From assembly GCF_025698545.1 (NCBI RefSeq), contig NC_068569.1, forward strand, positions 10,726,001 to 10,790,000: 64,000 nt of DNA, in the 5' to 3' direction. How positions within the stretch are numbered: position 1 is the first letter of the stretch; the number at the start of each line of letters is the position of its first letter. Positions 31,707 to 60,200 of the stretch are shown here, one piece after another. Both the position numbers and the translations under genes were made by a program. The notes beneath the pieces were generated by a model. It did no database searches, was not told the origin of the DNA, and saw only the letters and a program-made list of their open reading frames with translations. This stretch comes from Gossypium raimondii (taxonomy: Eukaryota; Streptophyta; Magnoliopsida; Malvales; Malvaceae).

Positions 31707-34700
31707 TCAGTCAATTTTCACAGAGGAATAGATCTTTCTAACAAACCAAAAGCAAGCATAGAAACCAATGGTTCCTGTCAGGACAAAGAAGGCATATGAA
31801 ACGATTACCATGTAGCCAAAGTAAAGGATGCCTGAAACTAGCTTGGTGATCTCCAACTTGGTAAAGAAGTAGAAAATCGAGTACAGGAAAAGGTAAAATG
31901 CAGAGGAGCCAGCGGTCAAGTAAGATCTCCACCACCAATAGTAGTCTTCACTGCACAACTGGAAGTAGCATAGCACGATTGTTATCTCCGCGCAGGTGAT
32001 TATTAGAATAATGAATACTATGAAAAGGAAACCGAAGATGTAATAGAACTGGTTCAGCCAGATTGATGTCAAGATGAAGAAGAGCTCGATAAATACAGCC
32101 CCAAAAGGAAGAATCCCTCCAATGAGTATAGAGAAGAGTGGCTTCATGTACCATGCCTGCTCTGGTATCTGCCTGGGAATTTTGTTGGTCTTCACAGGGT
32201 CTTCAATGGCTGGCTTTTTGAAACCCAAGTAACTGCCAACAAAGACCAATGGAACTGATATACCAAACCATAAACAAACAAGAGCGATCATTGTCCCAAA
32301 TGGCACTGCACCAGAAGATTGCTCTCCCCAAATTAGTGCATTCAGCACAAAGAAGATGACAAATAGGACACCAGGAAACATAAATGCTGTTTTTAAAGTA
32401 TTCCTCTTCCACTCCGTGCCCTTGAACATTTTGTATAGACGTGCTGAAGAGTAACCGGCAAATATTCCCATGAAAACCCACAAGAGAACCATAGCAGTCA
32501 TAAGCCCTCCACGATTGGAAGGAGATAAGAAACCCAGCAATGCAAATATCATTGTTACAAGCGTCATAGCAAAGATCTGGACACCTGTACCAACATAAAC
32601 GCAGAGTAAACCATAGTTGCTTGGAGCCCTAAAGACATCTCCATGGACAAGTTTCCATCCAGTTTCTTCCTGAGCCTCATCTTGGGTTTCCAATTGATTG
32701 TAGTTTGAAATATCTTTATACAATGTTCTCATCATGATCATGGCTACCATGCCAGAGAGGAAGAGAACAATCATCAATGAGTTTATGATGGAGAACCAGT
32801 GGATCTGATCATCATTCATCAGAAGGTATGTGTCCCAACGAGAAGCCCATTTGATATCACTCTCCTGCAGAAAACCAAAAGTCAACCCATGCATTAGGAT
32901 ATGCAGTGTAAAAAGATCAATGTAAGAAAGAGAAAGAGGAGGCAGAATACCTTGAAAGTTACATCATATGTGAAGACAACCTCCTTCCCTAGGTCGACTT
33001 CTTGTGGAACAGTGCTACCTGGAACTAGATTTTTGGTATCCTTATTGCATGTTGTCACTTGGGGATTCTTCTCATCCCATTCTTTGTATTCGTGATTAAT
33101 GCTGTTGATAAGGGCCACACAGTGAACAATAATGAAACAAGTCAGTCCTCTAATAACCAACGGAAAATATCCTTTATCCGATTATGATGAGTTTTCAGAA
33201 GCAAAAAGAAAACAATAGAAGTAGAACATTGAATTGCACGATTTGGCATTTGTCCTACCTAATAATAAATACAGTTCAACTAAATGTAAAAGAAAAAAAC
33301 TGAACAAAAAGAAAGAAATTGATAAAAGAACCTGTTAGGAGTAACCTCAAATCCAACAATTCGAGCAGCATCAGTCTCAGTATCCCTGTGAAACATGACC
33401 CTGAAGCTCAAGTGGTTGTTGATGAAATACTTCTCCTCTTTGGTCTGCAAAGGCATATAGATGGTTGAGATAAAACAAACAAACATAAATTTTGAAGACA
33501 ATAGCAACTTGCTTGAGCATACCCCAGCATAATTCCCCTTGAACCCAACACGGAAACCATGTTCATATGTCGTTGACTGACTTCCATCTCTCCTTTGTCT
33601 AAGAACTGCAACAGGAAGGTTGTCAAGAATCCTGAGCATCAAGTTCAGATAATTTAGTATAAACAAGCATCAAAAACGTATTAGCCACAAATGGAGAGAA
33701 AAAGGACAGTGGTAGGGAAGCAAACATTAAAACAAAAAGAGGTAAAACTACACAAATGCATCTCCCTAGAGGGAAAGGAACAAGGAAACATGAACAGTTA
33801 CTTGTTACTTACATATTAACGCGATATTCATCATCAATTTTTTCCTTGAAGTTCTTTGTAGATTCTGCATCAAGTTTTATTCGACAGACTACTTTGCAAG
33901 GCTGATCCTCCCTCATTTCAAACTAAAGCAAAAACATGATAAACAATGAAATAAGAATTGCAGATACAATCTAAAAAGCTTTTAGTTAAATACAACTTGT
34001 CAGCAACAACAAGGAAACAACACCAGAAAAGGTCACAGATGCGCACAGTGTAGACAGAGTTCTCTATGCGATCACCACGTAGCACCTCACCCAAATTTTC
34101 AGCATTGTTCACAATCTTGGGTGGCTTACAATAATTTAAGAAGTAATAGTCGTATGGGAGTTGAGTCTTTGTAGATGACAATTTGTTCACTTTTACATAA
34201 AGGGGATCACCCTGTCCAGAATCAGAAAAAGGAAATTTTAAGATGTATGACAATTAAGAATAACAAAGAGATGAAAACTATAAGAAAAAAGATCATTAAA
34301 AAAATTCCGAACAATATAATCCAAATAACCCTGCCACAGATCCCTTGCCCCCAAAAATTATAAAGGTGGAGTAATAGTACCCTAGAGAAGCATGCAAAAT
34401 TGTAACCAATTCACCAATTTTTAAACTCTATGAACTGATGGTCCAAGCACCACGTGAATTTTTAACACTAAATACACTTTTATGTTTCTGGCCATATAGT
34501 CATTAATCTCTTGGAACTTGAAAAACTATGACCTCTGTATAGTTTTGGATATTCATTGACAAAAAGGAAATACAGTGTAAGGGAGCACATCCTTAATTTC
34601 AGAAGATATTAAGAAACACAAAAAGTAAGATCTTGACAAAGAATGAAATCGCTTTCATTTCTTCGTATCATATCAGTGATCATTATCATTGAAATGGAGA

Positions 34701-35599: not shown

Positions 35600-36304
35600 A
35601 TAGAGGAGAGTTGAAAGAGTTTGAGAGATTGGATAATATAAAGCCTTTTGGAAACTGTTATACCAAGCAATGATGGAAAGATAGTATACGTACTGAAATA
35701 CTGCACCAGAGCTTCTACCAATTTCTGTTTAATAATTGAGCAAAGGAAATGCAACCTTATTGGTGTTCCTAATCCTATTTAATTGGCGAGAGACACAGAA
35801 TCAAACTGTCTTCTAATTCAAGACCCTGCATTATCATTTCTCAACCAATTTTACTGCTGTAATTCTCTTCCCCTAAATGGTTTCCTAAAATCAGGCGTTG
35901 CTTTATTAAAATTAGATCACGTGTCTGTGTGAAACCATCGGGTAAATTTTGAATCGATTCATGGATTTTTGAAATAGTGAATGTGGGCGAAACAGGAATG
36001 ATTTCTTCTTTGAATGTGGCGTATTTACCAACATTCCTCTTATTCCCTTCTTTTACCATCCAATCCAAACGAAAGAAAAAAAAATCCGATATTAATATCA
36101 ATATCGAATATTAAATGCTGACTCCCTAATTAATTTATTTTGAGATTTCTTTTAAAATTGCAGTTTAAACTAATATAATTTTACAAAATACTGAAAGATA
36201 TAAGCACTTTTATAATAAATTTTATTATTTAAAAATATATTTTATCCTCGTTTAAGTAAATTCGTAATACCAATTCAATTAATACTTAAATATAATATAA
36301 ATTA
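35600..36304. other. Upstream region of the TMN7-like gene
   Basis: Presumed promoter of the minus-strand gene, then AT-rich DNA. No other gene seen. Confidence 0.45.
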
Positions 36305-36640
36305 GGATAAATATCAAAACTACATGTGAACTTTGATTCAATACGCACTTATACATATTAAATGTTGATTTTAATTTAAATATGTACATAAAACTTTGAT
36401 ATTGATTCAATTATATATATTTAAAGAAATGAATTAATCAAATTAATTTTATATTATATAAGTGTAATTTTTGTATATATAATATGTAAACATAAAATGA
36501 TTTTGTATGAATAGTGATGTTAGTTATTTGTAAAAATTATATCAAATTAAAATATTATTTATATAATTTCATAAAGTTATAGTTCATATATAACGTTGCA
36601 CATCAAATAAAAAATTATATATAATTTTTAAATTTATCCC
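36305..36640. mobile_element. AT-rich MITE-like repeat, copy 2
   Basis: Related to 6751-7093: it starts GGATAAATATCAAAACTAC, ends TTTTTAAATTTATCCC (inverted match), and shares internal phrases such as GTGAACTTTGATTCAAT. It is more decayed than copy 1. Confidence 0.55.
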
Positions 36641-36797
36641 AATAAATTAATAATGAAATTTAATGGTTAAACAATCAATAAAACATTGTTGGATTTTAAC
36701 TTAATCAAATTTTCTATAAAAAAAATACTTAATACATAAAATATTATTAAAATAAGTTAAATATTATATAAATATGTGACTGCGGTTGCTTTTTTTA

Positions 36798-36947
36798 GGG
36801 TGGATTTGGATGGGCGATTGGGTGCGGTGCGGTGCGTTTAGCTTACTTTTTGTCTCACGCTACAGTATCGCTACAGTATCTAATCTCACTGCCACCGCTG
36901 TTTTTACACTAACCGCAGGTAAACGCATCGCCCATCCAAACTCACCC
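36798..36947. mobile_element. Harbinger/Tourist-type MITE, copy A (150 bp)
   Basis: A palindromic element flanked by TTA on both sides (36795-36797 and 36948-36950), the 3-bp duplication typical of PIF/Harbinger elements. The left end GGGTGGATTTGGATGGGCGA pairs with the right end CGCCCATCCAAACTCACCC. It is clearly more GC-rich than its surroundings and closely similar to copy B at 46443-46597. Confidence 0.85.
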
Positions 36948-36950
36948 TTA

Positions 36951-38784
36951 ATTTATTCCTTTAAAGAAAACCTTAACAAGTGACATTAGAACAATAATCA
37001 GTGGTAAAGAAAAGTAGGTGACAAGCAATGTATGCATAGCATTCAAGATTTATATCCCTAGTCCCTACCACGCTTCTTAGAGATCAGATCTAGTTTCTAT
37101 AACGGAAGACTTAAGAATAAAAAAAGCTGCTTTACTATTTTTACTCTGTTTTTCACATGCCAAAGTGGGATTTATATGTTTTATATTTGGAACTTTATGG
37201 ACCCATCAATCCAATATACTTTTGTTATTATTTTTTGAACCATATTATTATAGATTTTGATCTTTTTTATATAATGTCTAAAATTATTTATAGCTCCCCA
37301 ACCCTTAAATAGAAAGATAACGTACTTTAGCCTGCTCAAATTCATGTTTTTCTACATCGACAATAATATTGATACTAATCAAATTAAGACTTAATCGACA
37401 ATTATATGTTAATTACTTAACCAATCCCATTTGGAAAAAGATATAATAAATCAAATTAGATATAGTACGTCCAATCATCATTCAAGTTTGTATTTGTTAG
37501 GCACCAAAATCTCTTTTCCCTGGAAGGAAATGTTTAAAGTTGACATCATATAATATGAGTAGGAATTTATATAATGTCACATTTATCTATTGATAGATGA
37601 AAAACATTCTCTTATCTTATTCTAATATTTATTTTAGTATTTAAGTTTTTTATCCAGTTTGATTATAGAAATTATAAAAATATCTTTCAAATTCTAATAA
37701 ATTATATTATTTGAGAGTATTTTAATCTTTTATTAATATATATGTCAATCACGTTAGTAAAACTTTTAATCTACCACTTAGTTAAAATTTTATTTTGATA
37801 TATCTTATTACCTCATTCGATTGTATATATTAATAATATGGTACAAATTTCATGTGTTATTATTAATTAGTTTCAAACTATACATTTCATTATTTATTGT
37901 ATGTTATTTTTAAACACACATTTATATTTTAAATTTGTGGTTTTCTACACATATCTGCGTGTGATAAGATTTTTAGTTAAAACAAAACATTTGCTTTTCT
38001 TACATAAATTTTGGTTTATTACAAATTAATCAATTTCGTGGGTGTATAGCTCTTGTCCTCGTGTTAGTATTATAGTATCTATTAGTATCTATGTGTTGGG
38101 TGTACCATTTTAAATTTATTAATGTTTTTAAAGGTTTTTCATATATATTTATAATTTAATTTTAGTTTTTAATAAAATATAAATTATATTCATATATATA
38201 TATATGCAAATAATAAATTTTAAAATTATTAATTAAGACAATATATTTTAATTTTAATTATTAATTATTAATTAAAATTATATTTTAATTTTAAATGTAA
38301 TTAAAAAATGAAATGATTAAGATAAAATATGATTTAAAATATTAAAATTGTATTAACATGTATAAGTTGGTATGCACCGCCGGTATAAGGTGATATTAGC
38401 TAAAATATATCAAAATTTTGATGAAAATAAAATTTAGATTACTTGGAACCATTTTATGACAAACAATACATAACGGCCTATCCGATATTTACTATCAAAA
38501 TATAAATATCACACATTTTATTAATGTTTTATAGGATGAATCTTTTTATTAACCCCAAAAAGTAGGAATACTTTACCACAAAGTCATCATAAAGGATCGT
38601 AGGGAATGAGTTTGCTGCAGATTAAAGTCACGCAACATGAATCTCCCAACATTGAACACAACAGAAAATCATTATAACCAAACACTCCATAAGCCAACAC
38701 ATATACGTCACCCCCGTCTTAACAAACAACATGCCCCATGTATGATCGATGGAGGGAAACACCCTTGAATTGTTACGACTTTAA
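36951..38784. other. AT-rich intergenic DNA
   Basis: No gene supported. Low-complexity A/T sequence with short TA runs (for example 38194-38204). Confidence 0.5.
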
Positions 38785-39156
38785 TTAAGACTTGATGCTA
38801 ACAGTATCCATAAACTCCTTATCCTTTTCCATGGCTTCAAATGTCTCCACTGGAAGGCAAACTTCAATGTCAATGCTTCCGTCTTCCTTCCCAGATTGCA
38901 CCGTGGCCCTCCCATCGAACTTGTTCCCTGGCCCGCTCCGTATTGCCACCGGCCTTCCCAATTCGGTGTTGCCCCCATAGATATCGAATCGAGGTGAACC
39001 GCTCGTCACCACAGCGATATTTGGCACTAGATTGCTCAATCTAGTTAGCTTAGGACATCGTTTCCAACATTCAAAGAAATTTCTAAGCTTTTCCTCGTGG
39101 CAGGAAGCCACCAACTTGTTCATTTGCCACGCCGCGTTGCCGAGTCCATTGTCTAG

Positions 39157-39781
39157 TGTCACGGGCCGCAGTTCAAAGCCCGTGACCATCGCATCAAATG
39201 CATCCAATGGAGGTCTATTGTTTCGATGAGAATCATTTGGCCCGCAAGAACTGACCCGATTCAAGAAGCTGTTGGAGAAGCCTGTCAGATTGAAGCTTGG
39301 TTGGCCCGATAATGAAGATTTGGAAACTTAGGCTAATTTGGTAACTAATCTTAGAAGATTGAGGGAATCATCTCTTGTAAATATTAGATTAGATTTGATA
39401 TGACATATCTTGTAAATCCCTAAAATCAAGAGATATGGTTAATCTCGTCCGTTGATGTAAACGTATCTTGACCGTCGGTTTTGGGGGAGCTCAACTATAA
39501 ATAGAGAGCCTCCCCCTCATTTGTACTCACTCCATTCATTGTTTCATTATTCTTTGTGAATAAGAGAATATTGAGAGTATTTACTCAAACACTTTGTGTG
39601 CACTTTTTTTGTCGTTCTTTGTAGCTTCTTTTGGCATAATTCGCTTCCGCTCTTTAACTTGGTGCCTTTGAGGAGTTCTTAATGAATCATCACTTGAGTA
39701 AAGGCTGACTTAGGCGAGTTTGGACGAACGGGTCGCCTAAGGCCGCATGAATTGCGAGACAAAAGATCTAGCCCCGTGACA
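39157..39781 (+). mobile_element. Solo LTR (625 bp) in the BAHD pseudogene
   Basis: Begins TGTCACGGGC and ends GCCCCGTGACA, so the termini are inverted TG...CA. It contains a TATA box in CAACTATAAATAGAGAGCC near 39494-39506, followed by leader-like sequence, giving plus orientation. The flanks read CTAGA and (on the coding strand) CTA-A, consistent with a 5-bp duplication that lost one G. No internal retrotransposon region is present, so it is a solo LTR. Its left end supplies the spurious N-terminus of a 159-codon frame that runs into the BAHD C-terminus. Confidence 0.8.
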
Positions 39782-40102
39782 TTAGCAGCTCCTTGACTTT
39801 CATAGTTACGGTCTCGATTTGCAAAGCATTCCCGAAGTATGCTTCGGACAGACCCCGAATCTGTTTCCTAGCATCGATCAGCAAGCAATAGCTGGTTTCT
39901 TGATCGGGGTCAATCTTCTTGTTGAAAACGATGGATCGCCATAAGTGACAGAGTAGAGCTTGAAGAGAGGAGATCTCGTCGTTAATGCCAACATCAACAT
40001 TGGATTTCTCTTTAAGCTTTGCGATAACCTCCTTGGTGAAATGAAAAACTTTCACTTTGACGTCTGATGGAGCATCATCGGCCTCGTTTGCAATTTGCTT
40101 GA

Positions 40103-43100
40103 TGTAACACCCCTTACCCATATCCAACACCGGAATAGGGTACGAGGCATTACCAGAACACATACACTTGTAAATGTATTTAACCGAGTTATAAATTTTC
40201 ATCTAAATTAAAAACTTCAAAATTATTAACATGCTTTTATAACTTTTCAGAATATATCCTCAAAATATTATAATCTTAATAAATATGGCCTATGAGACCC
40301 GATACATACTCATGCAAGTCAATGTTTCATTTCCATTTCATTCAATTTGCAATTTCTCATGCTTACAATTTGAATCATATCACTAGCAATTTTCCAATTT
40401 AATTCACGTACAATTCAATGCCACTAAGTTTAACACTAATACGTAATTACCATTTAATTCAATGTTTTTGACTATACCATTCATTTCAATTTCCCATTCC
40501 ATTTTAATAATTTATCCATCATCAATTTCCATTGTCAATTCGTTTTTTTTTATAATCAATTTACGTTAGAGTCTTTAAATACTCACTTCATACATTAAAT
40601 CCATAAATATATTTTTCGATACCTTGTATTCAATTAAATTCAAGTATTATTTCACTATTTCAAATTATTTCATTTTCACTTCTCATTTTACATCATTTTA
40701 TATTATCAAAATCTATTTCATAAAATTTATCATTATCTGACATTAAATCACACACATACTTTTCTTTACAATTATCACTACTAATAAACAATTCAATCTT
40801 TTAATATTATCAACTAATTATATATAACAATCATTCTTATTTCTTTATTTCAAATTTCACTTTTCACATATGTCTTATCATTCGATTTAGTTTTATCAAG
40901 AACTTTATTTCATTTGCCCCTATTAACTTGACTCGGACTCGACGGATACACGGATTCCAACCAAACACACCAAGATACGATGTCGATAACGGTAGCGATA
41001 ATGATATTCAACACACAAAGTGCTGAATCATAACGATATGATAACGATTTCGACACACAAAGTGCCGAATCGATAACAGTAACAGTAACAGTATTAGACA
41101 CACAAAGTGCCGAGTCGATGCGATAAGATAAATGATTCGACACACAAAGTGCGAATCGATAATATAACGATGTCGGCACATAAGTGCCTAATCGATGTTT
41201 CCGGCAAATACCCGTACTCTTCCATATCCTATGGCATGCCAACTATATCCGACTAGCCCGACTAGTTAATAGGGTATTTAATTCACTTTCCAAAGATAAA
41301 TTTCCATCTTAGTTCAAGATCAATTATAATTTCTTATTTCAATCAGTTTCACAAGATTGCGGTAATTCATTATTTCAGTATTTTCACAGTTCAATGCAAG
41401 ATACATAACAATATTCAAGATTCGTAATTGATTCGATGATCGGTCTCACATATCAATTTCCACTTTCTCGTTTCAATTCCAATAAAATCCATATCAATCA
41501 CCAATTTCAATACTCCAATTTAATTCAATAATTCAATTCAAACCATTTCAATTTCTATTCAATAATCACATTTCAATGCATAACTTATAAATTTAACGTG
41601 ACATAATTCAGCCACTACTTGGCCAAAGCCTAAGAATGTATACCAAATATGTTAGCCAAATACACATATAACATAAGCATTATAAGCATGGATGAGCACA
41701 ACATTTATTAATGTGCCACATTTACCAACAGATGTTAATTCATAAACCATTCATGACATCACTTCATGCCCAATCATATACCAATTATATTATTCACACA
41801 TACTATGAAACTTTATTTTCACACATGAGCTTAAACCATGTCTAATAATGCACAAATATAAGCATCATTTCTATTTTATCGTTTATCAATTATAATCAAG
41901 CATATGACCAATTATACACAAATCATTCATACATTTCCCAATTTTCCTCCTCCTCCTCTCCATTCCACATCCTTAATGTGTATAATACACTTAAACAACA
42001 TTAACTATAATTTCACTATTCACTCACATGTATATTCAAAACTGTTTACCCGAGTTAGAGTCACTAAATTATTTTTATCCGGAGCTACAGAGCTCCAAAT
42101 TAAGATCCGTAAATTTTCCCCGGAACTAGATTCACATATATTCTTACCATAAAATTTTCAGAATTTTTGGTTTAGCAAAATAGTACAGTTTATTCTTTAA
42201 AGTTCCCCTGTTTCGCTGTCTGACAGTTCCGACCACTCTTCACTAAAATTAATTATCTCACTGTACAGAATTCGGATGATGTTTCCGTTTATTTCTTCTG
42301 AAAATAGACTCATTAAATATTCTAACCATATAAATTATAACTCATAATAGTTTTGTACAATTTTAATGATTTTCTAAAGTCAGAATAGGGAACCTGAATT
42401 CATTCTGACCTTGTCTCACAAAATCCATTATATCTCATGATTTACAATTTCATTGCTTACACCGTTTCTTTTATAAGAAACTAGACTCAATAAGCTTTAA
42501 TTTCATATTTTATTCATTCTCTAATTCAATCTCTACAATTTTTGGTGATTTTTCAAAGTTAGACTACTGCTGCTATCCAAAACTGTTTTAGTGCAAAATG
42601 TTAATTTCCATTTTGCCCCAAATTTCACAGTTTATACAATTCAGTCCTTTCTCAATTAACCCCTCAATTGATCTAATTCTCTCAATTAATACTTTACCTA
42701 GACATTATAAGTTATTTCACAACTATTGAAATTCAGAATTTTCACATATAGCTCTAACTTCAAACTCTTTTACTATTAGGTCCCAAACATTCACTTTCTA
42801 TTCAATTCTTTCAATAAAATCAGCATATGAACAATTTAAAGCTCTAATTTCATGCTAAATCATCATATACTTCCAGCACATATTCATATCAACTTTCAAC
42901 TTCTTTCATAAAATCAAAACTAATGAATTCAACAAGTAGGCCTAGTTGTAAAAGTCATAAAATACAAAAATTTCAAGAAATGATCAAGAATTGAACTTAC
43001 TTGCAGTAAAAATATGAAGAACCAGCTTGAAGAAACCCTTCCATGGTGTTTTAGCTGATGAGAATGCAGAAAAAATGAAGAGAAATCTAGATAATTCCAC

Positions 43101-43664
43101 TTTGGTCCTAACTTTATTAAGTAAATTTTTCAATATTCCAATTTTGCCCTCAATTCTCCTGATTTTCTGCCTTTGCCGTCCAGCCCAAATAGACCTTGGG
43201 TCTATTCTCCTTTTAAGCCCTCCTCCTTTTATCATTTAAGCTATTTAATCATTTCCTATAATTTTGCATTTGTTACAATTTAGTCCTTTTTGTTCAATTA
43301 ATTATCGGAACTTTAAAATTTCTTGACGAAACTTTAATACTAACTTTTTGACACTCCATAAATATTTTTATAAATATTTATGGCTCGGTTTAAAATCTCT
43401 GAGGTCTCAATACCTTATTTTCGATTCTAATTATTTTAATATTTATTTCTAGTGCACTATTCACTATTTCAAAATTTTTCCTAACTTCACATTTAACTTA
43501 TACTCACTAAATTAATAATATTTTCTACTCATTTGTCGAATTTAGTGATCTCGAATCACCATTCCGACACCTTTGAAAATTCAGGCTATTACATTTTTTT
43601 TTCCTTGTCGGATTTGTGGTCCCGAAACCACTATTCCGACTAGACCCAAAATCGGGCTGTTACA
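40103..43664 (-). mobile_element. Large solo LTR (3562 bp), probably Gypsy type, in the BAHD pseudogene
   Basis: On the minus strand it starts TGTAACAGCCCGATTTTGGG and ends GGTAAGGGGTGTTACA. A perfect 5-bp duplication, CTTGA on the plus strand, flanks it (40098-40102 and 43665-43669). There is no gag-pol, so it is probably a solo LTR left by recombination. The start resembles the LTRs of large Tekay/Del-like Gypsy elements common in cotton (from memory). It contains a degenerate tandem repeat at 41011-41190 and a duplicated 5' terminus near 43520-43664. Confidence 0.85.
41011..41190. repeat. Degenerate tandem repeat inside the large LTR
   Basis: ACACACAAAGTGC followed by a GAATCGAT-like block recurs at about 41011, 41053, 41098 and 41140, with a weaker copy (GGCACATAAGTGCC) at about 41175, a period of 35-46 bp. 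The open frame through it is an artefact of the repeat. Confidence 0.85.
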
Positions 43665-44157
43665 CTTGATGTAAGAATTTGGAATACGAATGGTATGAAA
43701 ATTGTCGATTGTATTATTATTAAGGAAACAACGTTGGAAAATCAGGGGTTTCGATAAACTAGAGGAACCATTAACGATTTCCAAGCAGGAGCTGAAGGCA
43801 TGGAAAAAGGATGCGCCATCCATGATGGAATGGTTGATGGAGATACTGATGAAATCCCCATCGACGAGCTTTGTCACTTGAACAGCGACTAACGGTTCGA
43901 TAGTACCTTGGCAGTTTTTAACTCCACGCAACGGAAAAATCGAGTCGACAAAAGAAGGAACATAAACAGGCTTGATGATATCCCTAGAGCTCACCTCATC
44001 AACGACGGCGTGAACGAACAAAGCTCTGCCATTGTTGCAGTCAAAGAAAACGGAAGTGGTGTTGTCATCGTGTTCGACTGCGGCGAGGTGACCCGTCAAG
44101 TGTTGGAAGTGGTCCAGACACTTGGACAGAGAGGATTTAACGTAGTGAACCAACAAG

Positions 44158-45401
44158 TAGGGGTGAGCATTCGATCGAATCGAATCGAATCGAATCGAAA
44201 ATTTTCGAGTTAATCGAGTTTTCGAATCTCATTTTATCATCCTAACTTTATTTGAAGTTTTCTCGAATCGAGTCGAGTGAGATGGAATTCGAATCGAATT
44301 GAATCGAATATATTTGTTCGAGTTAAATTTTAAAAAATAATTTTAGGTTCTTGTAACCATTGTCACCCACCGTAATAAAATTTGTCCACCTTAATCAAAT
44401 TTTTTATTAACTTTCATCACTTCATAATTTATTTATTAATTTTTTATATCTTGGTTAGCTTCTTTGCTTGCTTAGTTGTTTCAATTATCTTGATTCTTGT
44501 CACTATGTATTTTAGAATTAAAAATATATTAAATGTAAAAATATGTTTTTTAATAAAAGTTATTTTAAAAATAAAATGTGAAATTGATACCAATATAAAA
44601 TTTTAACATGAATCTTTTATGGCATAATTAATAATTCAATTTTAATATAAATATTCAATATGACTAGACAATTCAATAATATAAATAATATAAAATGTGA
44701 AATTTAATTTAATAATATAAATAGTAGATATAAATAAAATTATTACTATTTATGTTTAGTGATTTTTATTTGGATATTTTGATTTTTATTTGGGAGTAAA
44801 GGGTGAGAAGTAAAAGTTTAGGGAAAAATAAAAGTTTTGGGGAATAAAAGTTTGAGGAAAGTAAATAGGGGAGTAAAATTTTGGAGGAAAATATTAAAAA
44901 AATTGGAGGGTAGGGTTTGGGATAGATGGGAGGTGAGATGGGAAGAGAATAAAAGTTTTAGGGGAAAAGTGAGAGGGAGTAAAAATTTTGGGGGAAAATA
45001 AAAGGTTTTAAGGGTTTTTGGGAGTAAAATTTTGAGAAAAAATAAATGGGAGAGTAAAATTTTGGTGGAAAATGGATTTTGGGTAGATTAGGGGGGTTGG
45101 GAGGGGAGGGGAGTAAAAGTTTTGGGGAGAAGGTGGGAAGGAGTAAAAGTTTTGAGGAAAAAGTAAAAATATTTGGGAGTTTGGGGTAAAAATGTAAAAT
45201 ATTATAGTTTGATATTCGTATTATTCGAATTATTCGAGTTATTCGAATTCGAAAACTCAACTCGATTCGAACTCGAAATTCGAAAAAAAAAATCGAGTTG
45301 ATTCGAATAACTCGATTAACTCGAATAACTCGATTCGTTTAACTCGAAATTCGAATTTTTTTTCGATTTTTTCGAGTCGAATCGAGTTTTGCTCACCCCT
45401 A
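44158..45401. mobile_element. Non-autonomous hAT-type transposon (1244 bp) in the BAHD pseudogene
   Basis: Perfect 12-bp terminal inverted repeats (TAGGGGTGAGCA at the left, its complement TGCTCACCCCTA at the right) are flanked by a perfect 8-bp duplication CCAACAAG (44150-44157 and 45402-45409), the hallmark of hAT elements. Subterminal zones (about 44170-44320 and 45210-45390) are packed with TCGAA/TTCGA motifs, as expected of transposase-binding clusters. The interior is AT- and G-rich with no transposase frame. Confidence 0.92.
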
Positions 45402-45508
45402 CCAACAAGGTCTCAGAATCTTGGTCTTGGCTCAACTGAGGAATATGGAAAAAGAGCACTCCTCTGCATATAATCTGACAGGAGGAACTGAAGATCCCAT
45501 GGGGTTAA

Positions 45509-46275
45509 GGCCCCATTTGGTTTGGCTTTTAATGCCAGTGAGGTGCAGTTGGGGTAAATATCTGCAACCAACCTCACTGCTATACTGTTTGGTTCAGCAT
45601 GCCAGTTCAGTGAAGAGGCATTTCCACCACAATCGATATCTTGAAAATCATTTGGAGGTTTCAAAGAAGAGATTGAAATTATTGAATCTGTTGGTATTTT
45701 TAATAGACAAAAATACCCTTACTTTTATTTATTATTTTACCATTTTATCCTTGAAAGTTAAACTAATTTCTTTCCCAATCTTGAAAGTTAAAAATCATCC
45801 ATTTAGATACTTCAAAATTTGATCCAAGTATAATGTTACTATTTGTGAAAATAATATTTATCATTATAATAAAAGAATATTTAACTATAAAAAATTAAAA
45901 ATAATTATCGTTTTGTCTATTAAATAATTTAAATTGATTATATAATTTATTAAAATATTTATAATAAAATATTAGAAGATACATTTTAATAATTTATTAA
46001 ATTAATTTATAAATTCACATATTTTAATAATTTTATAAAAGTAAAATAATTTAAAAACTTCTTTTATATATCAATTCTAATATGATGTCCTTAATAGTCA
46101 TTTTTTATTCTCACCTCACCGTTGCAGCTGCTTTTGAATCCAAACACACACTCCACCATTGTTTCTAATCTTACTGCTACAGTATCCAATCTCACCGCTA
46201 CAGTAACTAATCTCACCGCCACCACTGTTTTTAACCTCACCGGAGCTAAACACATCGCCCATCCAAACTAAGCCC
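45509..46275. mobile_element. PIF/Harbinger-type element (767 bp) in the BAHD pseudogene
   Basis: Flanked by TAA on both sides (45506-45508 and 46276-46278). The ends are imperfect inverted repeats, GGCCCCATTTGGTTTGG and CCATCCAAACTAAGCCC. The right part (about 46160-46275) shares CTACAGTATC, ATCTCACCGC and CCCATCCAAAC blocks with the 150-155 bp MITEs, so it is a longer relative. Excising it with one TAA joins the BAHD codons for QPPNID and LTPWD in frame. Confidence 0.85.
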
Positions 46276-46442
46276 TAAGTCGATGTTTGGAGGTTGGTTC
46301 TTGGGATTCGTAGCTTGAACAATGTTGGTGGAGATGAGTCGAATGCCTGTCATTGTTTTTGCTTTGTACTATGCTTTTCAATTCTCAAATTACGCTTTGA
46401 CGGATGATATTTATTTATGTTCCCATTTCCCAACCACAATTA

Positions 46443-46597
46443 GGGTGGGTTTGGATGGGCGATTGGATGCGGTGCGGTGCGGTGCGTTTAGCTTACTTTT
46501 TGTCTCACGCTACAGTATCGCTACAGTATCTAATCTCACCGCCACCGCTGTTTTTACACTAACCGCAGGTAAACGCACCGCCCATCCAAACTTACCC
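46443..46597. mobile_element. Harbinger/Tourist-type MITE, copy B (155 bp)
   Basis: Flanked by TTA at 46440-46442 and 46598-46600. The ends GGGTGGGTTTGGATGGGCGA and CGCCCATCCAAACTTACCC are inverted. Long identical blocks with copy A (36798-36947), such as TTTTTGTCTCACGCTACAGT, suggest recent movement. It lies 90 bp upstream of the BAHD start codon. Confidence 0.88.
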
Positions 46598-47109
46598 TTA
46601 GTTTAGAAGTAAATTTTGTGTACGACATGCAACATCAGCTTTATTAAACAAGTAAAAAGTAAAATGGCATATTGATTTGCTGCAAAAAGAAAACAATAAA
46701 TGATGTAAAAATAAATATTAATAACTTTATTTATGTTATAAATATGGATAAATTATATTTTAGTTATTTATGTTTGAAATGTTATGTTTTAGTTACTTAT
46801 GTTATCATATTGTAACATTTTAGTCAGAGCAGTAATTATCATTAACAGTGTAGCGGTAAATTGATATAGCACGTTAAATTATCATTTCAAATAAAAAATT
46901 TGTTGGAAAATAATTGATTTATTGGAAGCTTTGAGGCATATTCTCAATTAGTAAAGGTAGAGATTTGAATCATAAAACTATGATTTTATATTCTACTCCA
47001 TAAGATCTTTATAACGGTATATCATATGCTCAAATGGTTGAGTGGTGAATGAGAAATTGATGCTTAAAGTAAGCCACTTGTGAATTATGTTGATAAAAAT
47101 GGAAAGCTT

Positions 47110-47154
47110 AGTCCCACATTGGTTAAATATCAAGTGTGGACTATGTTTATATAT
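47110..47154 (+). promoter_or_regulatory. snRNA-like USE plus TATA promoter candidate
   Basis: AGTCCCACATTGG (47110-47122) matches the plant snRNA upstream sequence element RTCCCACATCG at 10 of 11 positions. TTTATATAT at 47146-47154 follows after about 24 bp, the spacing reported for Pol III-type snRNA promoters. The downstream sequence matches no U6, U3 or other snRNA that I recognise. A thymidine run near 47358 could end a transcript of about 180 nt. Confidence 0.3.
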
Positions 47155-47357
47155 GTGAACCAACTTAATGATTATTAAATGACTAAATTAATACTCTTCC
47201 TTGTGCTCAAGGTTGGGGGCACACTTGCATGATGTGAATGATGCAAAATGTTTAAATTTGTTGGGCCTTCTAAACTTGTGAATATTTTGACCTAATGCAT
47301 CTTTTGTTCAAACCGATTGGACCTTCTTGACCTACAGATAATTTTGGCTCAATACAT

Positions 47358-47500
47358 TTTTTTCCTCTTCAACAAGCTTATCTGTTTGGAATTAAAAGGG
47401 TTTAATGATTCATTTAATTCAAACATTAATTGAGGTTTAATGGCTCTCTTTTTTTTTCCTCCTCAGCAGAGCTTATATTTTTGGAATTAAAAGGGTTTAA
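47358..47500. repeat. Imperfect direct repeat (two units of about 48 bp)
   Basis: TTTTCCTC plus a CAGCAAGCTTAT-like block plus TTGGAATTAAAAGGGTTTAATG occurs near 47360-47408 and again near 47455-47500, about 95 bp apart. Confidence 0.7.
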
Positions 47501-47869
47501 TGGCTCCTTAATTTACGGACACATTATTGGCTGTCCAAAAATTTCAAAAAGTTCTTCAATTAAATTTTATTTAAAACTTAATAATCAGCAGGAAAAGAGA
47601 TACACTAAAATTTTTCAAAATTTCGAGATATCCTTTTCCCTTCATATTTTTCAAATTGGTTTCTGGTGATAGATGAAGGTAAGGCTATTGTTTGTTGATA
47701 ATGCAGATGTGCTACTGTCGTACTCATCTCGTTGTTGTATCCTGTGAGACAACCGACTAATATTTCTCTAGCACCAAAGAGTGGCCGAATCTGTCTTAAG
47801 GAGATTGTGGAAACAGGCCTCAACTACCAGTATAATATTTCGATTCAATCTATATTTCTGTTCTTTTCT

Positions 47870-47872
<3 letters not shown>

Positions 47873-47905
<33 letters not shown>
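47873..47905. repeat. TA microsatellite
   Basis: About 16 uninterrupted TA/AT units. Confidence 0.95.
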
Positions 47906-47908
<3 letters not shown>

Positions 47909-48009
47909 AATCTATATATTGTTCTGGTTCGATCTTATGCTTTAAATAAGTATTTTATATTACTGTTATTTACTAACGTTTGTGCAACAAATTTTAGGTT
48001 AAATTATAC

Positions 48010-48376
48010 AATTGATCTCCATATTTTTTTCATTTTCAACAATTTAATTTTTTTTCATTTATGTTCTTTTAACTTTCTTTCTTTTTTCTTTATTTTCCAT
48101 TCTCTTTTGCTTCTCCATCTATTTTCCTACATTCTTTTAACATATCAGGAAGTCGAATTGGCAGTGAAGAAAGAAGCATGATATGGGTTTTGGTTATAGG
48201 CAATGATGGCTTTCGACTTTCTTCACTACCAATTTGACTTTCTGATATGTTAAAAGAAATAGAGAATGTAAGAAAATAGAGAGAGACAGAAGAGAATGAA
48301 AAAAAAAAAGAGAGGAAAGTTTAAAGAATATAAAAAAAAATTAAATTGCTCAAAATGAAAAATATCTCTATTGATA
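48010..48376. repeat. Long inverted repeat (foldback), arms of about 165 bp
   Basis: The left arm (about 48010-48178) includes CATATCAGGAAGTCGAATTG and GCAGTGAAGAAAG. The right arm (about 48205-48376) carries the inverted forms CTTTCTTCACTACCAATTTG and ACTTTCTGATATG. The match extends outwards through the AGAGAATGTAAGAAAATAGA region to TCATTTTCAACAATTTAATT. The loop is only about 25 bp. A foldback MITE or hairpin small-RNA locus would look like this. No target duplication is certain. Confidence 0.8.
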
Positions 48377-50200
48377 AATAAAAATGCATTTTCTTTTACT
48401 ATCATATTTCTTGTTTTTCTACTTTTCATTCTTTTATTTCATAACAATTTAAACATAATTAAATAAAATTAATTATAACCAAAGAATAAAACCAAGAGTT
48501 AATAACATTTATTTATAATAATTGTAATTAATCAATATTTAATTAAACATTTATTTATAGGTTCTTCACAAATTTTTATTTTATTTTATTTAATGATAAG
48601 ATATATGCAACTCATGCAATTGTGTATCAAATATTTTTTCTTTCCCAACTGCAGAGGCATAAATTAGTTTAGAAGTAAAGTTGATGCTTATGCTACACTA
48701 CCCTGATTTAAATGAGTTCAAAGGTGTCATATTAACTTGGTACCACGATTTAGATATCAAAATTAAAATTATAATTAAAATCCACTTCTTATACGATAAA
48801 TATAAAGGAAAAAGGAAAAAGAATACGTATATACATGCCGAATTTTTATAATTTTAGATGCAATTGCTATTATAAGATAATAAAATAAATGAAATACGAA
48901 GCTATGTAGAGATAAGAAAAATCAAAATACATTAACATATTGAAACTCGTATTAAATAATGTAATAAAATACAATTCTTTAATTAAAATCTTAAAAAGAG
49001 TAAGAATATAATATAAAAAAACATGTCGGTAGTGTAGAAGATTTTACTGCCATGACTACCAATTAGCTGTCACAGAATTATTTAATTTTAAATAATGAAA
49101 AGATATTGTACAAGTTGTAATTTCACGTCATTTCTATCCATTTTTAATAGAAGAATAACAAATCAGATATTTTCTTCCTAATTTTTAGCTTTTTCCTCCT
49201 AACAAAATTCAAACTCAACTAAAAATACTAAAAATCAGGAGAAAAGATCTAATTTGTCATTTTCTTATTAGAAAGGGATAGGGATAATATGGAATCACAG
49301 TTTCATATAATCCTTTTAACTCGTAGGGAGAATGTCACCGATGTTGTTAATGTTATGGGATGATGTGTTTTAATTTAGTAAATTTTATGTGTATTTATTT
49401 TGGTTCAAGTTTGGTTATATTACATTTAAATATATTTTGATTATTGTTATTATTGTGTTTTATAATATTAATTAATTTTTATCAAATATAATTAATTTTA
49501 TAATTTATGTTCGTGGTTCGTGGTTGTCTATTTTAACAATATTATTTCTAAATTTTAAATTTGTATTATTTCTTTAAGAGTGCAATGTGACTTACTAAAC
49601 TTATCACTACATCGATCACTTATTGGTTTTATAATATTAATTACGATAATAACTATTTGGATATATTAATCCTAAAAATAAGTTCTTTGTACAAAATTTG
49701 GTAAAAATACCTCTCCAAGCCCTTTCAATTTTGAAATCGAACAAATTAGTCTCTCTCAGCAAAATCAAAACAATTTAATCTCTTTCAATTTTGAAATGAG
49801 CGAACAATTAATCATGGCATTAATGCCTTTATTCAATTGTGCACAATTTTGGTTGATATAATAATAATTTTGGCCCTCAATGTTTACATATTTTGTTAAT
49901 TTTATCTTGATTCTAAAACAATCCAATAAATTTAGCCTTAAATATTTAAACATTTACAAAAACATTGCGGGCTAAATTTGTTAAATCATGACCAAACTGA
50001 TAGGATGTGTAAATTATGAGAGCTAAATTTGTTGTTATAATATACCAGTCAGATTTATGTAAAATCGACAAAAAAAATAAAGTTGTGATTAATTTTCATT
50101 GAAAATGATTAAATTGTTTCAATTTGTTTTAGAATGACCAATTTGCTCAATATCAAAAGTGAAAGGGACTGAAGAGGTCTTTTCACCAAAAAAAATTATT
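48377..50200. other. AT-rich intergenic DNA
   Basis: No supported gene. Decayed, low-complexity sequence. Confidence 0.5.
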
Positions 50201-54779: not shown

Positions 54780-57287
54780 TTTTTTTTTTTTCTGAAAAGA
54801 AATCTGTTTATAGCAATTGGGCCTGAACAACAAACAGGAGAAGTCCACCAGCAACTTACAAACCAAAGTAAAAACAAAACAAACAACAAAACGGGAAAAA
54901 AAAAAGCAAAGAAAAAGAAAATAATTAAAAAAGAAGATCAACAAAACACCATCTTCTCCATCCAACAAGTCTTCAGGCATGTGTGTGTCAACAAACCCCA
55001 AAAAAAATAAACGGTAAAAAAAAATTCCAAATCCGACAATGCAACATTTGGACAAGAAAGCAGTTGAGAATGGCCACCCTATATCAGTATTTCTCAACTC
55101 CATCACTGAAATAGAAAATGGGCTATGGAGGTCGCCCACTCCGAGGATCAGAATATGCCACTTCCAAAGCTTTGAAAGGCGCATCTTCCACCCAAAACAA
55201 ATCTCCTTCAGCTCGCATACCCTCAACAGCCATTACATGCACTGCTCCATTCCCTTCTCTCGCAATGAACTGGAATCGACAACATTGGAACTTCCTTGCC
55301 AGGTTCTTCGCGTCCCAAGTAAATGGTCTAGACTCCGAGTAATCCTCATTTGATTTTTGAATATTATTTACCACCAGTCTCGAATCACTCTCAAGAATAA
55401 CATTTGAAAACCCCAAATCCAGGGCAAATTAGAGCCCATGAAGGGCAGCAAGCGCTTCAGCAATCACCACCGAATGAACCAAATTATGTCCTTGAAATCT
55501 CGACCCCATTATAAATCCCTCATCATTTCTAATAATAAAACCTGACACTGCTCGTTTTTTGGCAATCGACAATCCCACATCAATGTTAATTTTTAACCAC
55601 CCTTGCGGAGGTGGCGACCATTTTACCATGGATCTCAGTTGGGGATGCTTCAAATTCTTAGCACTACTACGATATTTCAACCCAAAACTCCTAATGAAGG
55701 TAACAATTTCCTCCAAACTTTGCACCCTTCTTTCATGTACAAATTTATTTCGAGAGAACCAGATCGCCTAGATAGTAACAACAATTACCCCTTTCCTGTT
55801 CTTATCAGAATTCTCTAACAGCCAACTCAACCACTCATTAAAATTTACCATTGACCTCGGCCAGTGGACGTCTAACTTGGACCAAACTTGTGCAGCAAAC
55901 AATCAATCCCGAACAGCATGAGTAGAAGATTCACACCCCTGGCCACAACGCGGACAATAGTTATCAGAAGACAATCTCCTATAATGTAAGTTTTGAAAAG
56001 TAGGCACATAATTTTGAGCAAATTTCCAGATTAAGATGCGAATTTTTGAAGGACACTCTAAGCTCCATATCTGCTTGAACATTTTTTGCTCGTTGATGCT
56101 CACATTAGAGTTTTCCAGTAACATTTTATATACACTCTTTACAGAATAGATACCCGAATTTTCGCTAAACCAAAATACTTTATCTGATTGATCAGTAGTG
56201 GGAATAGGTATACTCATAATTTGGTCAGCTTCTTCCACAGAAAAAGTTGAGTAAATAAGATCTCTGTTCCAACGATTAGGTTCCTTCAGAGTTAACTCAG
56301 CCATCCAATCCAAACTAGCCACCCTATCAGTAGAAATAGAACGTTGAGCTTTTCCCGGCAACCAATGATCTTTCCATATTGACACCGATGTTCCAGACCC
56401 AACTCTCCACTTCAAACCAGACCCTAACAGGCCTTTAGCACACCAGATACTTTTCCAAACAAATGATGGATTCGCTCCTAAAGAGGCTTCCATAAAATCT
56501 CATCCTCTATAGTACTTTGCGTTGAGCAAATGCGCAAGTAAAGAACTCGGGTTTTCCATAAGCCGCCAACCCTGCTTAGCAAGAAGTGCGATATTGAATT
56601 TGGCCAAATCTCGGAAGCCCATCCCGTCCTCCTCTTTTGGTACCGACAGCTTCTTCCACGAACACCAATGAAGCCCTTTTTTCCCTGCTTTCTTTTGCCA
56701 CCAGAATCGAGCCATGACCGCTTCTAAATCCCTACAAACTGCTGACGGTAACAGAAAACAATTCATAACATACAGTGGAATAGCCTGGAGTACAGCTTTG
56801 ATAAGGACCTCCCTCCCCCCTATGGAAAGTAATCTCGAGCTCCAACTTGAGACTCTTTTAAATAGCTTTTCTTTAAGTTCCTTAAAAGCCCTCTGTTTGT
56901 TACGCCCCACCATTGATGGGAGACCAAGGTAATTCTCCAGGTTTAGATTCCTATTAACCCCCAGAACCCTACAAACCTCTTCTCTGTTAAACTGATCAAC
57001 ATTGGAACTGAAAAATAACCCTGACTTGTCAAGATTGACTTCCTGACCAGAACACTTAGCATAGGCCTCTAAAATTTCTTTGATCACCACTGCTCCATTG
57101 ACAGACACATCTCCAAAGATAAGGCTATCATCTGCAAAAAACAAATGGGTGATTCGTGGGGCTTGCCTACTAACCCGAAAGCCATTAAGAACTCCCCTTG
57201 AAACAGCCCTTCTAAGAAGAGTCGAAAATCCTTCACCATATATAAGGAATAAATAAAGACTAATAGGGTCCCCTTGGCGAAGGATAT
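54780..57287 (-). mobile_element. 5'-truncated L1-type LINE (reverse transcriptase, zf-RVT, RNase H), decayed
   Basis: The minus strand encodes, in order, the second half of a reverse transcriptase (RQGDPIS, then the catalytic FADDS), a zf-RVT segment (NYCPRCGQGCESSTH) and a plant RNase H-like domain (INIDVG ... LESDSR). It ends in a 12-A tail (plus-strand T run 54780-54791). The 5' end stops abruptly around the codons for RQGD near 57285, the usual 5' truncation of LINE insertions; endonuclease and ORF1 are absent. In-frame stops interrupt the polyprotein near 56500 (TGA), 55903 (TGA), about 55769 (TAG) and 55429 (TAA). It is inactive. No matching target duplication was found. Confidence 0.92.
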
Positions 57288-60200
57288 TCATGTTTACTCT
57301 ATTTACATTTATGTCTAACCTTAGTATATTATATATAATTTTTGTTCAAACTTTTTCCAACTTAAATTTGGTTTCTAATCATTAATTTTATTTTAGTGAC
57401 TCATATATATCATTTTTAATTCTCAATCAATGTTATACATTTTTCAAAAATTCCTAAAATCAAATCCAAATTAAGCCGGATAATTGAAGGATTTTATTTT
57501 GGAATTTAAATAAATTACTTTTTTATGTTATAAAGATTTATAACCTATAAATTAAATAAATAGAATTTAATTCGAATTTATAAATTGAAAATTGAAACTA
57601 CATTTAATCATTTAGAAAACTTAAATAAAATATTTGGATTGATTTTCAATTTTCTTAATTTTTTTTCAACCTACTTTTTTATCAAAACGGTGCTTAAAAA
57701 GTTCCGTTTTCCTTGGTGTTTGCGTTTACGCCTAAAACACCATTTTCAAAGTCAAAAACAATAATAGGCGGGGGACTACGCAAGGAATAAAGTGATAAAC
57801 TCGTTTTACTAACAAGGAAAATATACTCAAAAACCATTTTGAAAGAAAAAAAAATACAATCATTTTATCTGCAATATACAAAAGGAGGACATGGAGACGG
57901 AAAAGAAATAGTGTTTTTGTGAATTATAAGAGAATGATAAAGCCTTAATAGAAACGCGATTAATGTAATTCAAATTCATGTCACATCTAATGCGGTGAAC
58001 ATCCTTATCATCATGTCAATACACAGAGTTCAAATTAATGGTTTTTTATGTACCAAAGAAAGCATTGCTTATTACTTTTTTGAGCAAAAACTAAAAATTT
58101 TTTGCTTCTACTTTTAGTTAAAAAAAAACTTTTGCAAAGTACTTTTGATCCCAAAAAGACTTTTAAAAAACTCAAATACACCTTATTTGTTTTATCTTAA
58201 AAGTACTTTTGTCCCAAAAATACTTCTTGGAAGTAACCCTAAATTGACCAAGTAAAATATATGAGTCATTAAAAAAATTAAAGTATTTATAAATGAAATA
58301 AATTTGTAATTTTAATCGTTTACAACGTGAAAATGCCATGCAAATAACATGTATAGCATTTATACATTTATAGGAAGGAGAAAACAAAATATTATTACAA
58401 AATGTATTTTATATCAAAATTTATTATTTAATAACTAAAATGTTGAAATTGCTTCCACTTTTAGGCTGGCAAATGGCAATACATCCTTGGTTTGTTGCCA
58501 AATCAAATCAAAACAATTGACCTATAATACACTTAAACAAACTAGCTTTGATCTAAGCTATTACTATTAAATATTAGCACCCATAAGGTTTTAATTAATT
58601 ACTATTTCTTTTATCAGAAAAAAGTTGCAGTTTGAAACATGAAAAGAGAATTCAAATTTTGCACATTATTTGCGCACACTTTTTTCTAATTATCATCACG
58701 CGAGATTAATTATAATAAAAATATAAATAACAACAGAGTAATCTAATTATTTATGATTTTAATCAATTTTTATTTTTTATTAATTTTTAGAAAAGTAATA
58801 GTTTCGCATGAAATTAAGAAATATTTTAAATTTCAAATTAAATCATCTCTAAACTATGATTCTCATTTTAAAGTATTTTTAATTACATCCTCAAACCATC
58901 AATGATATATCAATAAGGGTCTTCATTATTAAAACATTTAATTTAACTGTTAAATGAGGCGTTAAATCTTCGTGGCATAATTTAAAATGAAAATTTAAAG
59001 AAAAATAAATATTGTAAAATATTGGTTTTGAGGTTTTCAAAGCTTTTACTAAAACCATTGTTCACTCTCTAATTTTTCAATCTTACTCTTCTTTTTTCTT
59101 TTTAGTTTTTAATTTTAAAAGTTATGGGACAACATTTTTTCCTTCAAATTTTCGTTTTAAATTACGTCACATAAGATTTTACGTTTTATTTAATGGTTTC
59201 AATAATGGAAAGACCTACTTGACATAACATTTGATAGTTTAAAAAATGTAAATCGAACATTTTGAAATTTAGGGACCAATTTAAAATAATGGTAATCATA
59301 GTTTGTGCATGTCTTGGAATTAACCCTATTAATAGTTTTAAAGAAAATAGGAAAGTGGAACAAGTTTTATGGACAACAGCAAATATGTTTCCGAGGATGA
59401 GGTAGTCAACTTCAACACTGGCTTTTGCACTATTACGATATGTTTAATGCTGTCTTTTGGACACCATAATCTCGAGCTGTCAACAATTGTTAGCTACCTT
59501 TTCTTGCCTTAATTACGTGGATTTGTTCTTATCTTTTTTGTTCTTTTTCGGATATACTGCACCCAAAACAAAGGAAAAAAGAAATTAATTTGAAAGCATA
59601 TTCTAACTATTTTTAATTCCAGGCTTGGATCCACCAAAATATCCCATTTCAAACTTTCAAGAACCGACTAAGAAATTAAAACCTAAATTTTTATTTATTT
59701 TTCCTTCCTGAGAGGAACAAGTGCATCATCGGAAAACATGAACAAACAAAAAGATAATTTTCATGTAATATTCTTAAAATATTAATTTTACTTATGTTAT
59801 AATCTAATCTCCGAAAACTTTCTTTTACTTAAAATGAGAGATATTTATATATTAAATCCCATATTGATAAATTAATTATTCAATCACCTCCTTTATCAAT
59901 ACAAGATGTTAAAAGGTGTAAAATATTCTATATTCTACAAAAAAAAAAAAATTGTGCATTATTGGAAAAGACAAACTTACTTGTTAGGTTGCCTTAGAGG
60001 TTTATCTTAATTGTTATCCTTAGTACAATCATTTAATTTTTAATTTTCCAAGCTGGTGAAGATTTTTTTGTATATTTGTTTTAAAATATATCTTAGAGTT
60101 AGGATACATAGTGAAGTAGAACAGATGTCTTCAAAGTCACCACCGCTTCATATCTGATATGCTTTGTCTCATTTCCGTTCTGGATGTGTAATATTAAAAA

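Follow-up and report, generated by a model that had tools for sequence, protein, structure and literature searches.

A probable BAHD acyltransferase pseudogene of Gossypium raimondii, interrupted by four transposable-element insertions

The cotton pseudogene transcript pGhFAD2-1 comes from a D-lineage gene disrupted by inserted DNA. According to the description in PMC13194438, a coding tandem duplicate about 5 million years old was broken by a 1,221-bp D-lineage insertion; this single insert is said there to lack transposon features, and a transcript is shown, said to act as a regulatory RNA. Transposon-disrupted unitary pseudogenes of plants share with the locus reported here an orthologue that is full length in relatives, and target-duplicated insertions combined with a frameshift in one genus. 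The gene itself belongs with the At3g50280-like acyltransferases, whose best solved relative is AmAT7-3 (8h8i, E 7.6e-103), and resembles them over the whole length and in carrying the HXXXD motif.

The window analysed is a stretch of 64,000 nucleotides of G. raimondii DNA. On its minus strand, from 46353 to 38785, a single At3g50280-like BAHD acyltransferase gene lies in five pieces (Table 1). Between them stand a Harbinger-like element, a hAT-like element, a solo-LTR-like unit of 3.56 kb (LTR 2) and a probable solo LTR of 0.63 kb (LTR 1). We consider it highly probable that the locus is a pseudogene in which four insertions and a frameshift accumulated stepwise in D-lineage cottons. Judged by title or the start of the abstract, none of the matches listed in a literature search is a paper on this locus.

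Table 1. Gene pieces and inserted elements in the window. Coordinates of the pieces are the stretches between elements, with both target copies counted in.
Feature	Position	Strand	Details
BAHD piece 1	46276..46353	-	start codon to IDL; one TAA target copy at 46276-46278
Harbinger-like non-autonomous element	45509..46275		767 bp; target duplication TAA 3/3
BAHD piece 2	45402..45508	-	LTPWDLQF...; hAT target copy 45402-45409, TAA copy 45506-45508; +1 frameshift inside
hAT-like non-autonomous element	44158..45401		1244 bp; inverted ends TAGGGGTGAGCA 12/12; target duplication CCAACAAG 8/8
BAHD piece 3	43665..44157	-	HXXXD motif (HSIMD); PF02458 E 7.2e-21, profile 54-199
LTR 2, solo-LTR-like unit	40103..43664		3562 bp; TGTAACA...TGTTACA; target duplication CTTGA 5/5
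BAHD piece 4	39782..40102	-	PF02458 E 2.3e-09, profile 218-314
LTR 1, probable solo LTR	39157..39781	+	625 bp; ends TGTCACGGG...CCCGTGACA; CTAG vs TTAG, 3/4
BAHD piece 5	38785..39156	-	C-terminal part to natural stop; PF02458 E 2.7e-06, profile 319-434
Fifth insertion, Harbinger-like MITE	46443..46597		155 bp; TTA duplication; ~90 bp before start codon

The homology, the order of the pieces and their exact rejoining are beyond chance. Five collinear pieces on one strand had been predicted, and the profile intervals of the three longest, which were the pieces scanned against PF02458, follow the order of the gene; their scores (26.7, 36.9 and 74.8 bits) all exceed the curated cut-off of 22.7 bits. 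For these three, the match to P0003, the Craigia orthologue, is 71, 62 and 77%, while the cotton paralogues P0039 and P0079 reach 45-55%. Piece 1, which P0003 alone among four BAHD queries matched, stands at 77% to residues 1-26 of both P0003 and the A05 cotton model P0008. Over 20 residues, piece 2 has 15 matches with P0003 and 16 with the Hibiscus protein P0002, compared to 11 with P0039 and 12 with P0079. The junctions QPPNID/LTPWD, SYIK/QIAN and KELL/DNGLGNAAW rejoin as originally written, and the fourth, at the hAT-like element, reads ...DSETLLVHYVKSS... when rejoined. The database model of the G. raimondii gene, P0001, is labelled 'partial' and equals the window at 386 of 388 aligned residues, which makes it almost certain that the DNA is from this species.

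The pieces do not reassemble in frame, as had been claimed; the claim is wrong by one base. Joined, they measure 1351 nt, a length indivisible by three. Frame 0 of the joined stretch reads 45 residues of the gene and 11 foreign ones before a stop, and frame 1 carries the remainder through the natural stop. The +1 shift lies in a run of T near 45448-45453, between the hAT and Harbinger elements; a position between QR and GV was ruled out, because relatives place the shift in the T run further on. Since the G. hirsutum D05 model P0125 also uses the shifted frame, and the G. lobatum model P0012 and the A05 model P0008 do not, an assembly slip in the window is unlikely. Apart from this one shift the pieces retain an open frame. 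The G. raimondii locus would no longer yield the complete protein.

We are confident that the gene is the G. raimondii orthologue in a Malvaceae subclade of At3g50280-like acyltransferases, now a pseudogene. Its assignment to the BAHD family follows from homology and the HXXXD motif, and a strict definition by two motifs would leave it out: piece 5 has GGNTELG where NDFGWG is usual. Of the 128 proteins compared, 98 have DFGWG; the 12 subclade members whose sequence includes this site, five of which are from cotton, all lack it. Variants of this motif exist, for example DFGGG, reported in PMC9829388. Full-length orthologues occur outside cotton, in Hibiscus (P0002, P0005) and Craigia (P0003). 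None of the 11 cotton protein clusters found, judged by their representatives (P0008 stands for 13 members), has a full-length model, and the longest reaches 391 aa.

Release from selection, one of the two readings offered in the original prediction, is supported by faster change than in Hibiscus, by the lack of full-length models in those clusters, by the frameshift and by A models that end elsewhere. In rate comparisons that have rows in common and are thus not independent, 73 changes fall on the window side and 29 on that of Hibiscus trionum with Craigia as outgroup (445 columns, p 1.6e-5), and a 39-row tree gives the window branch 0.26 and Hibiscus 0.095-0.12; in the two cotton/Hibiscus sister pairs that this tree contains (P0079, P0066), the cotton member is the slower. 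Hibiscus is the only fair control of rate, because against Craigia, a tree species, the faster rate extends to another cotton paralogue, P0079 (0.21 versus 0.098). The cotton excess over Hibiscus is clearest in the C-terminal part. In the first 270 columns, which are comparable with A05, it is modest for the window (43 against 22, p 0.013), and A05 with the foreign tail of P0008 left out has 39 against 22 (p 0.04); among the changes placed there, 29 are shared, 14 are confined to the window and 10 to A05. Constraint probably weakened along the branch leading to the cottons, and it may have done so before the A and D lineages separated; this early timing is suggested and no more, the excess in these columns being modest. 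The faster change could instead reflect positive selection.

The inserted elements carry the structural marks of transposition to different degrees. Target duplications are perfect in three of the four insertions within the gene and agree at three of four bases in the remaining one, LTR 1. The hAT-like element has the 8-bp duplication and short terminal inverted repeats of that superfamily; its longest open reading frame, the one scanned, gave no Pfam match, to a hAT transposase or otherwise, and the element is read as non-autonomous. LTR 2 has TG...CA ends, a 5-bp duplication and no second LTR, as a solo LTR should; a search for long terminal repeats inside it found none, and two open reading frames scanned had no Pfam match. 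LTR 1 has TG...CA ends, no second copy and a TATAAA at 39496 on the plus strand, which sets its sense opposite to that of the gene, and its duplication is imperfect, with 3/4 bases where 4-6 bp are expected. The Harbinger-like element has TAA where a PIF/Harbinger MITE should have a 3-bp TWA duplication, and its inverted ends are weak. Its right end resembles two clearer MITEs: the fifth insertion, at about 86% over 85 bp, and a 94% copy of that insertion at about 36798-36947.

A structure scan found 38 LTR-like structures in the window and 39-58 in five simulated sequences, and five hAT-like structures in the window compared to 1-4 in the simulations; only the element in the gene has inverted ends matching at 11/11. 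By itself, the signal from ends plus duplications is not beyond chance for every insertion. Solo LTRs arise when the two LTRs of a retrotransposon recombine after its insertion, and LTR 1 and LTR 2 would each have been left in this way. Insertion dating from LTR divergence is impossible for solo LTRs, and none of the four elements' LTRs has a sister copy in the window.

The occupancy of the insertion sites in other cottons was read from 11 annotated protein models rather than from DNA. The Harbinger site is read straight through in two (P0008 and P0026, both A05), four include residues encoded by the element (P0012 of G. lobatum, P0011 of G. aridum, P0125 of G. hirsutum D05 and, for G. barbadense D, P0004), and five do not extend to it. 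Five models read through the hAT site (P0004, P0008, P0011, P0012, P0125), five skip or do not reach it, and a hAT residue appears only in P0001. The LTR 2 site is continuous in six (P0007, P0008, P0011, P0012, P0026, P0126); it is jumped by P0001 and P0004, P0022 starts and P0125 stops near it, and P0121 does not extend to it. LTR 1 residues occur in six (P0001, P0007, P0012, P0022, P0121, P0126), from G. raimondii, G. turneri, G. lobatum, G. davidsonii, G. aridum and G. mustelinum D05; P0004 jumps the element, four models do not extend to it and none reads straight through. That site is continuous in Hibiscus (P0002, P0005), Craigia (P0003) and Reevesia (P0006). The empty sites expected in relatives are thus found for each element, for LTR 1 only outside cotton, and at the level of protein models instead of DNA. 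The A-subgenome copy lacks three of the four elements, the LTR 1 site being uncovered, and A models end early elsewhere, after ...LLCHL.

These models suggest that LTR 1 and the Harbinger-like element are common to D-genome cottons. G. raimondii carries LTR 2, as the tetraploid D subgenome probably does, judging in its case from where models jump, start and end, and the hAT-like element appears to be confined to G. raimondii among the cotton models compared. With the species order and dates given in PMC6320677, the Harbinger-like element and LTR 1 would already have been in place in the D lineage when section Erioxylum diverged. The frameshift and LTR 2 would have followed, toward G. raimondii and, probably for LTR 2, the tetraploid D subgenome, and the hAT-like element would have arrived last, in G. 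raimondii.

A more elaborate version of these events is unlikely. It proposes that cotton twice lost an enzyme from an unusual BAHD subclade without DFGWG, through different A and D lesions, and that part of the D remnant is still transcribed and spliced across LTRs turned introns or exons, with LTR-encoded residues joined in frame to the C-terminal piece. Conversion of the locus into a non-coding RNA gene is also improbable. A precedent in the genus is pGhFAD2-1, but the region 36000-48500 has no Rfam match at gathering scores, and insertions went on accumulating. An insertion hotspot, a stretch that draws elements more than other DNA does, is similarly unlikely. Within 1.35 kb of coding sequence there are four insertions, and a fifth lies just before the start codon, which speaks for a hotspot, but they differ in kind, in duplication length and in the species that carry them, the last pointing to different ages. 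LTR-like structures show no excess over simulated sequence, in a scan whose chance matches are too many to provide a background. Two related D-genome assemblies are reported to consist of about 58% repeats (PMC8176745), so several insertions in kilobases free of selection are to be expected, and the proposed hotspot is left without support.

Very unlikely as well is the reading in which the elements serve as new introns and a working or partly working protein remains. P0001 lends it some weight, because this model strings three pieces together and leaves out both LTRs, and the pieces still hold open frames. The junction that P0001 implies at LTR 1 is GC...AG, which gene predictors seldom propose without alignment support. 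Yet the frameshift in piece 2 remains even with the elements spliced out, P0001 starts in the hAT end and lacks some 59 N-terminal residues, extra LTR residues are left at its LTR 1 junction, and other cotton models stop at or within the same elements. At the LTR 2 junction, P0001 has one residue and a four-residue gap that the window DNA does not account for. A splice origin of its E-to-Q change was rejected, the only canonical reading found needing a four-base exon. Finally, BAHD genes are numerous in plants, but a rearrangement joining pieces of different paralogues is scarcely credible when the same orthologues are nearest for all pieces in kept order, the four BAHD queries match no second place in the window, and the protein runs continuously through the site in cottons without the element, read-through models that contradict this possibility.

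As a pseudogene, the locus is a well-preserved case of ordinary gene decay, a process that is well known in general. It offers a readable time series of the death of a gene, in which the species tree can date the order of insertions. It also shows how one dead gene comes to be annotated as differing partial proteins (the 11 clusters found), some with transposon-encoded residues. The two separate models of G. aridum (P0011, P0121) are in line with the expectation that annotation would report several false small genes, while in G. raimondii the LTRs are treated like introns within a single model.

What sets the locus apart from transposon-disrupted unitary pseudogenes of plants is that one short gene holds four insertions, of three kinds or more, and that relatives reveal the order of events. 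It differs from pGhFAD2-1 in being an orthologue that carries four transposable elements and is known here from its sequence alone. Among the At3g50280-like acyltransferases of PF02458, it represents a Malvaceae subclade that lacks DFGWG, and the copy in the window is broken.

The At3g50280-like BAHD acyltransferase (PF02458) gene lies on the minus strand, with its start at 46353 and its stop at 38785, exactly the limits of the original prediction. Four elements cut it into five pieces with a summed length of 1351 nt. With each element taken out and a single target copy kept, the coding sequence rejoins as ...PPNIDLTPWDLQ, ...DSETLLVHYVKSS, a string of 11 residues and ...KVKELLDNGLGNAAW. Three of these four junctions had been named beforehand, together with a claim that the pieces reassemble in frame. 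That claim missed a frameshift between the Harbinger and hAT elements: frame 0 encodes 45 gene residues, then 11 more, then a stop, and frame 1 encodes the remainder. Unshifted relatives read QRSALFHIPQLS (P0012, Gossypium lobatum) and QRGALFHIPQLS (P0008, an A-subgenome A05 model). In the G. hirsutum D05 model P0125 the string is RGVLFFHIPQLS, from the shifted frame, so the frameshift is probably real and shared with the tetraploid D subgenome.

Features of the disrupted locus and its surroundings
Feature	Window positions	Remarks
Harbinger-like element (first in gene order)	45509-46275	TAA duplicated
hAT-like element (second)	44158-45401	inverted ends 12/12; CCAACAAG duplicated 8/8
LTR 2, solo-LTR-like unit (third)	40103-43664	TGTAACA...TGTTACA; CTTGA duplicated
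LTR 1, probable solo LTR (fourth)	39157-39781	TGTCACGGG...CCCGTGACA; CTAG vs TTAG
Two Harbinger-like MITEs	46443-46597, 36798-36947	150-155 bp, 94% alike, TTA duplications; one ~90 bp upstream of pseudogene start codon
Direct repeats	3198-3389, 3801-3990	~190 bp, 93% alike
Foldback-like long imperfect palindromes	48023-48365, 49697-50190	74% and 64%
Probable LINE	55903-57345	minus strand; reverse transcriptase and zf-RVT pieces
Host gene, SUEL-lectin domain	29177-29578	presumably part of a beta-galactosidase
Host gene, EMP70 protein	31710-32963	
Host gene, BIRD-IDD zinc finger factor	61992-62789	

The closest database protein, P0001, is named as a partial G. raimondii model and is identical to the window at 386 of 388 aligned residues, with both mismatches at model junctions. 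It joins three pieces and passes over both LTRs as it would over introns, with GC...AG at the LTR 1 junction; its first residue comes from the hAT end, and LTR 1 contributes MSR. Around its residues 164-166 it reads NSYI-NQADD, compared to a 13-residue string from the window pieces. Splicing does not account for this Q and gap, nor does the window sequence, and the source assembly of the model may differ from the window at LTR 2.

A first protein search gave 1473 matches, of which the best 120 were used; two further searches, each with a smaller query, found 5 and 9. At least 11 cotton orthologue clusters were recovered (P0001, P0004, P0007, P0008, P0011, P0012, P0022, P0026, P0121, P0125 and P0126), and none of the 11 is full-length among the matches listed, as judged on cluster representatives. 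Full-length proteins occur outside cotton in Hibiscus trionum (P0002), H. cannabinus (P0005) and Craigia (P0003), at 71-73% identity, and Reevesia P0006 is without an internal stretch.

The presence or absence of each element in relatives was read from protein models, not DNA. Cotton models reaching the Harbinger site contain element residues in four cases and read straight in two, both A05. At the hAT site one model (P0001) includes a residue of the element, five read straight and P0026 skips the site. Six models read straight through the LTR 2 site and two (P0001, P0004) jump it; P0022 starts and P0125 stops nearby. At the LTR 1 site six carry LTR residues, none reads straight and P0004 jumps it; P0008, P0011, P0026 and P0125 all stop short.

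These site states were placed on the species tree of PMC6320677. That tree sets the subgenus ~6.58 Ma from the others, with G. gossypioides first to split (~2.56 Ma), Erioxylum next, and G. raimondii sister to G. davidsonii plus G. klotzschianum. On this tree the Harbinger insertion would fall after the A/D split and before the departure of Erioxylum. LTR 1 would also precede that departure and, with no A model extending to it, may be older than the A/D split. LTR 2 would have arrived after divergence from G. davidsonii, and the hAT element after divergence from the D-subgenome donor of the tetraploids.

The A-subgenome copy probably bears an independent lesion of its own. P0008 reads straight through three insertion sites and P0026 through two. 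Both become foreign, each differently, directly after ...SLQALLCHL, where the window has no element, and no A05 protein turned up in a protein search that used the C-terminal piece as its query. Separately, the models G. lobatum P0012 and G. davidsonii P0126 omit 46-47 internal residues, the two gaps lying at separate positions, so the copies in these species may contain further lesions.

Protein change is fast on the window branch. A Tajima-type count over 445 columns, with Craigia as outgroup, gives 73 changes for the window and 29 for H. trionum (p 1.6e-5). Further window pairs give 75/34, 70/16, 56/18 (against Craigia) and 53/25, and G. turneri gives 49/19; these comparisons have rows in common and are not independent. 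After trimming of the A05 model's foreign tail, counts over 270 columns are 39/22 for A05 (p 0.04), 43/22 for the window (p 0.013) and 19/12 for window versus A05 (p 0.28), with 29 changes common to both, 14 in the window alone and 10 in A05 alone. The excess is modest over the first two thirds of the gene and greatest towards the C-terminus, a region beyond the end of the A model. The window branch measures 0.26 in a 39-row tree, versus 0.095-0.12 for Hibiscus. Two cotton/Hibiscus sister pairs in this tree (P0079, P0066), a small control, have the slower branch in cotton and thus reveal no speed-up. Another cotton paralogue is also faster than Craigia (0.21 versus 0.098), so the Craigia comparison tells little. 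We read these rates as suggesting that constraint was relaxed on the cotton branch, possibly beginning before A and D separated.

The window gene groups with proteins of Herrania, Reevesia, Corchorus, Craigia and Hibiscus (100/99 support). This Malvaceae subclade retains HXXXD, but all 12 of its proteins that extend over the DFGWG site, five of which are cotton copies, show GG-x-[TA]-x-LG or a near variant there; the site belongs to the C-terminal piece at 38785-39156 in the window, and the relatives are P0002, P0003, P0005, P0006, P0009, P0010 and P0013. The absence of DFGWG is thus characteristic of the subclade and does not point to decay at this locus.

An insertion hotspot, the other explanation originally offered, does not appear to be needed. 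The G. thurberi and G. davidsonii assemblies are ~58% repeats, according to PMC8176745, and in such genomes an unconstrained kilobase can be expected to gather insertions over a few million years. The insertions differ in kind and time, which fits ordinary accumulation.
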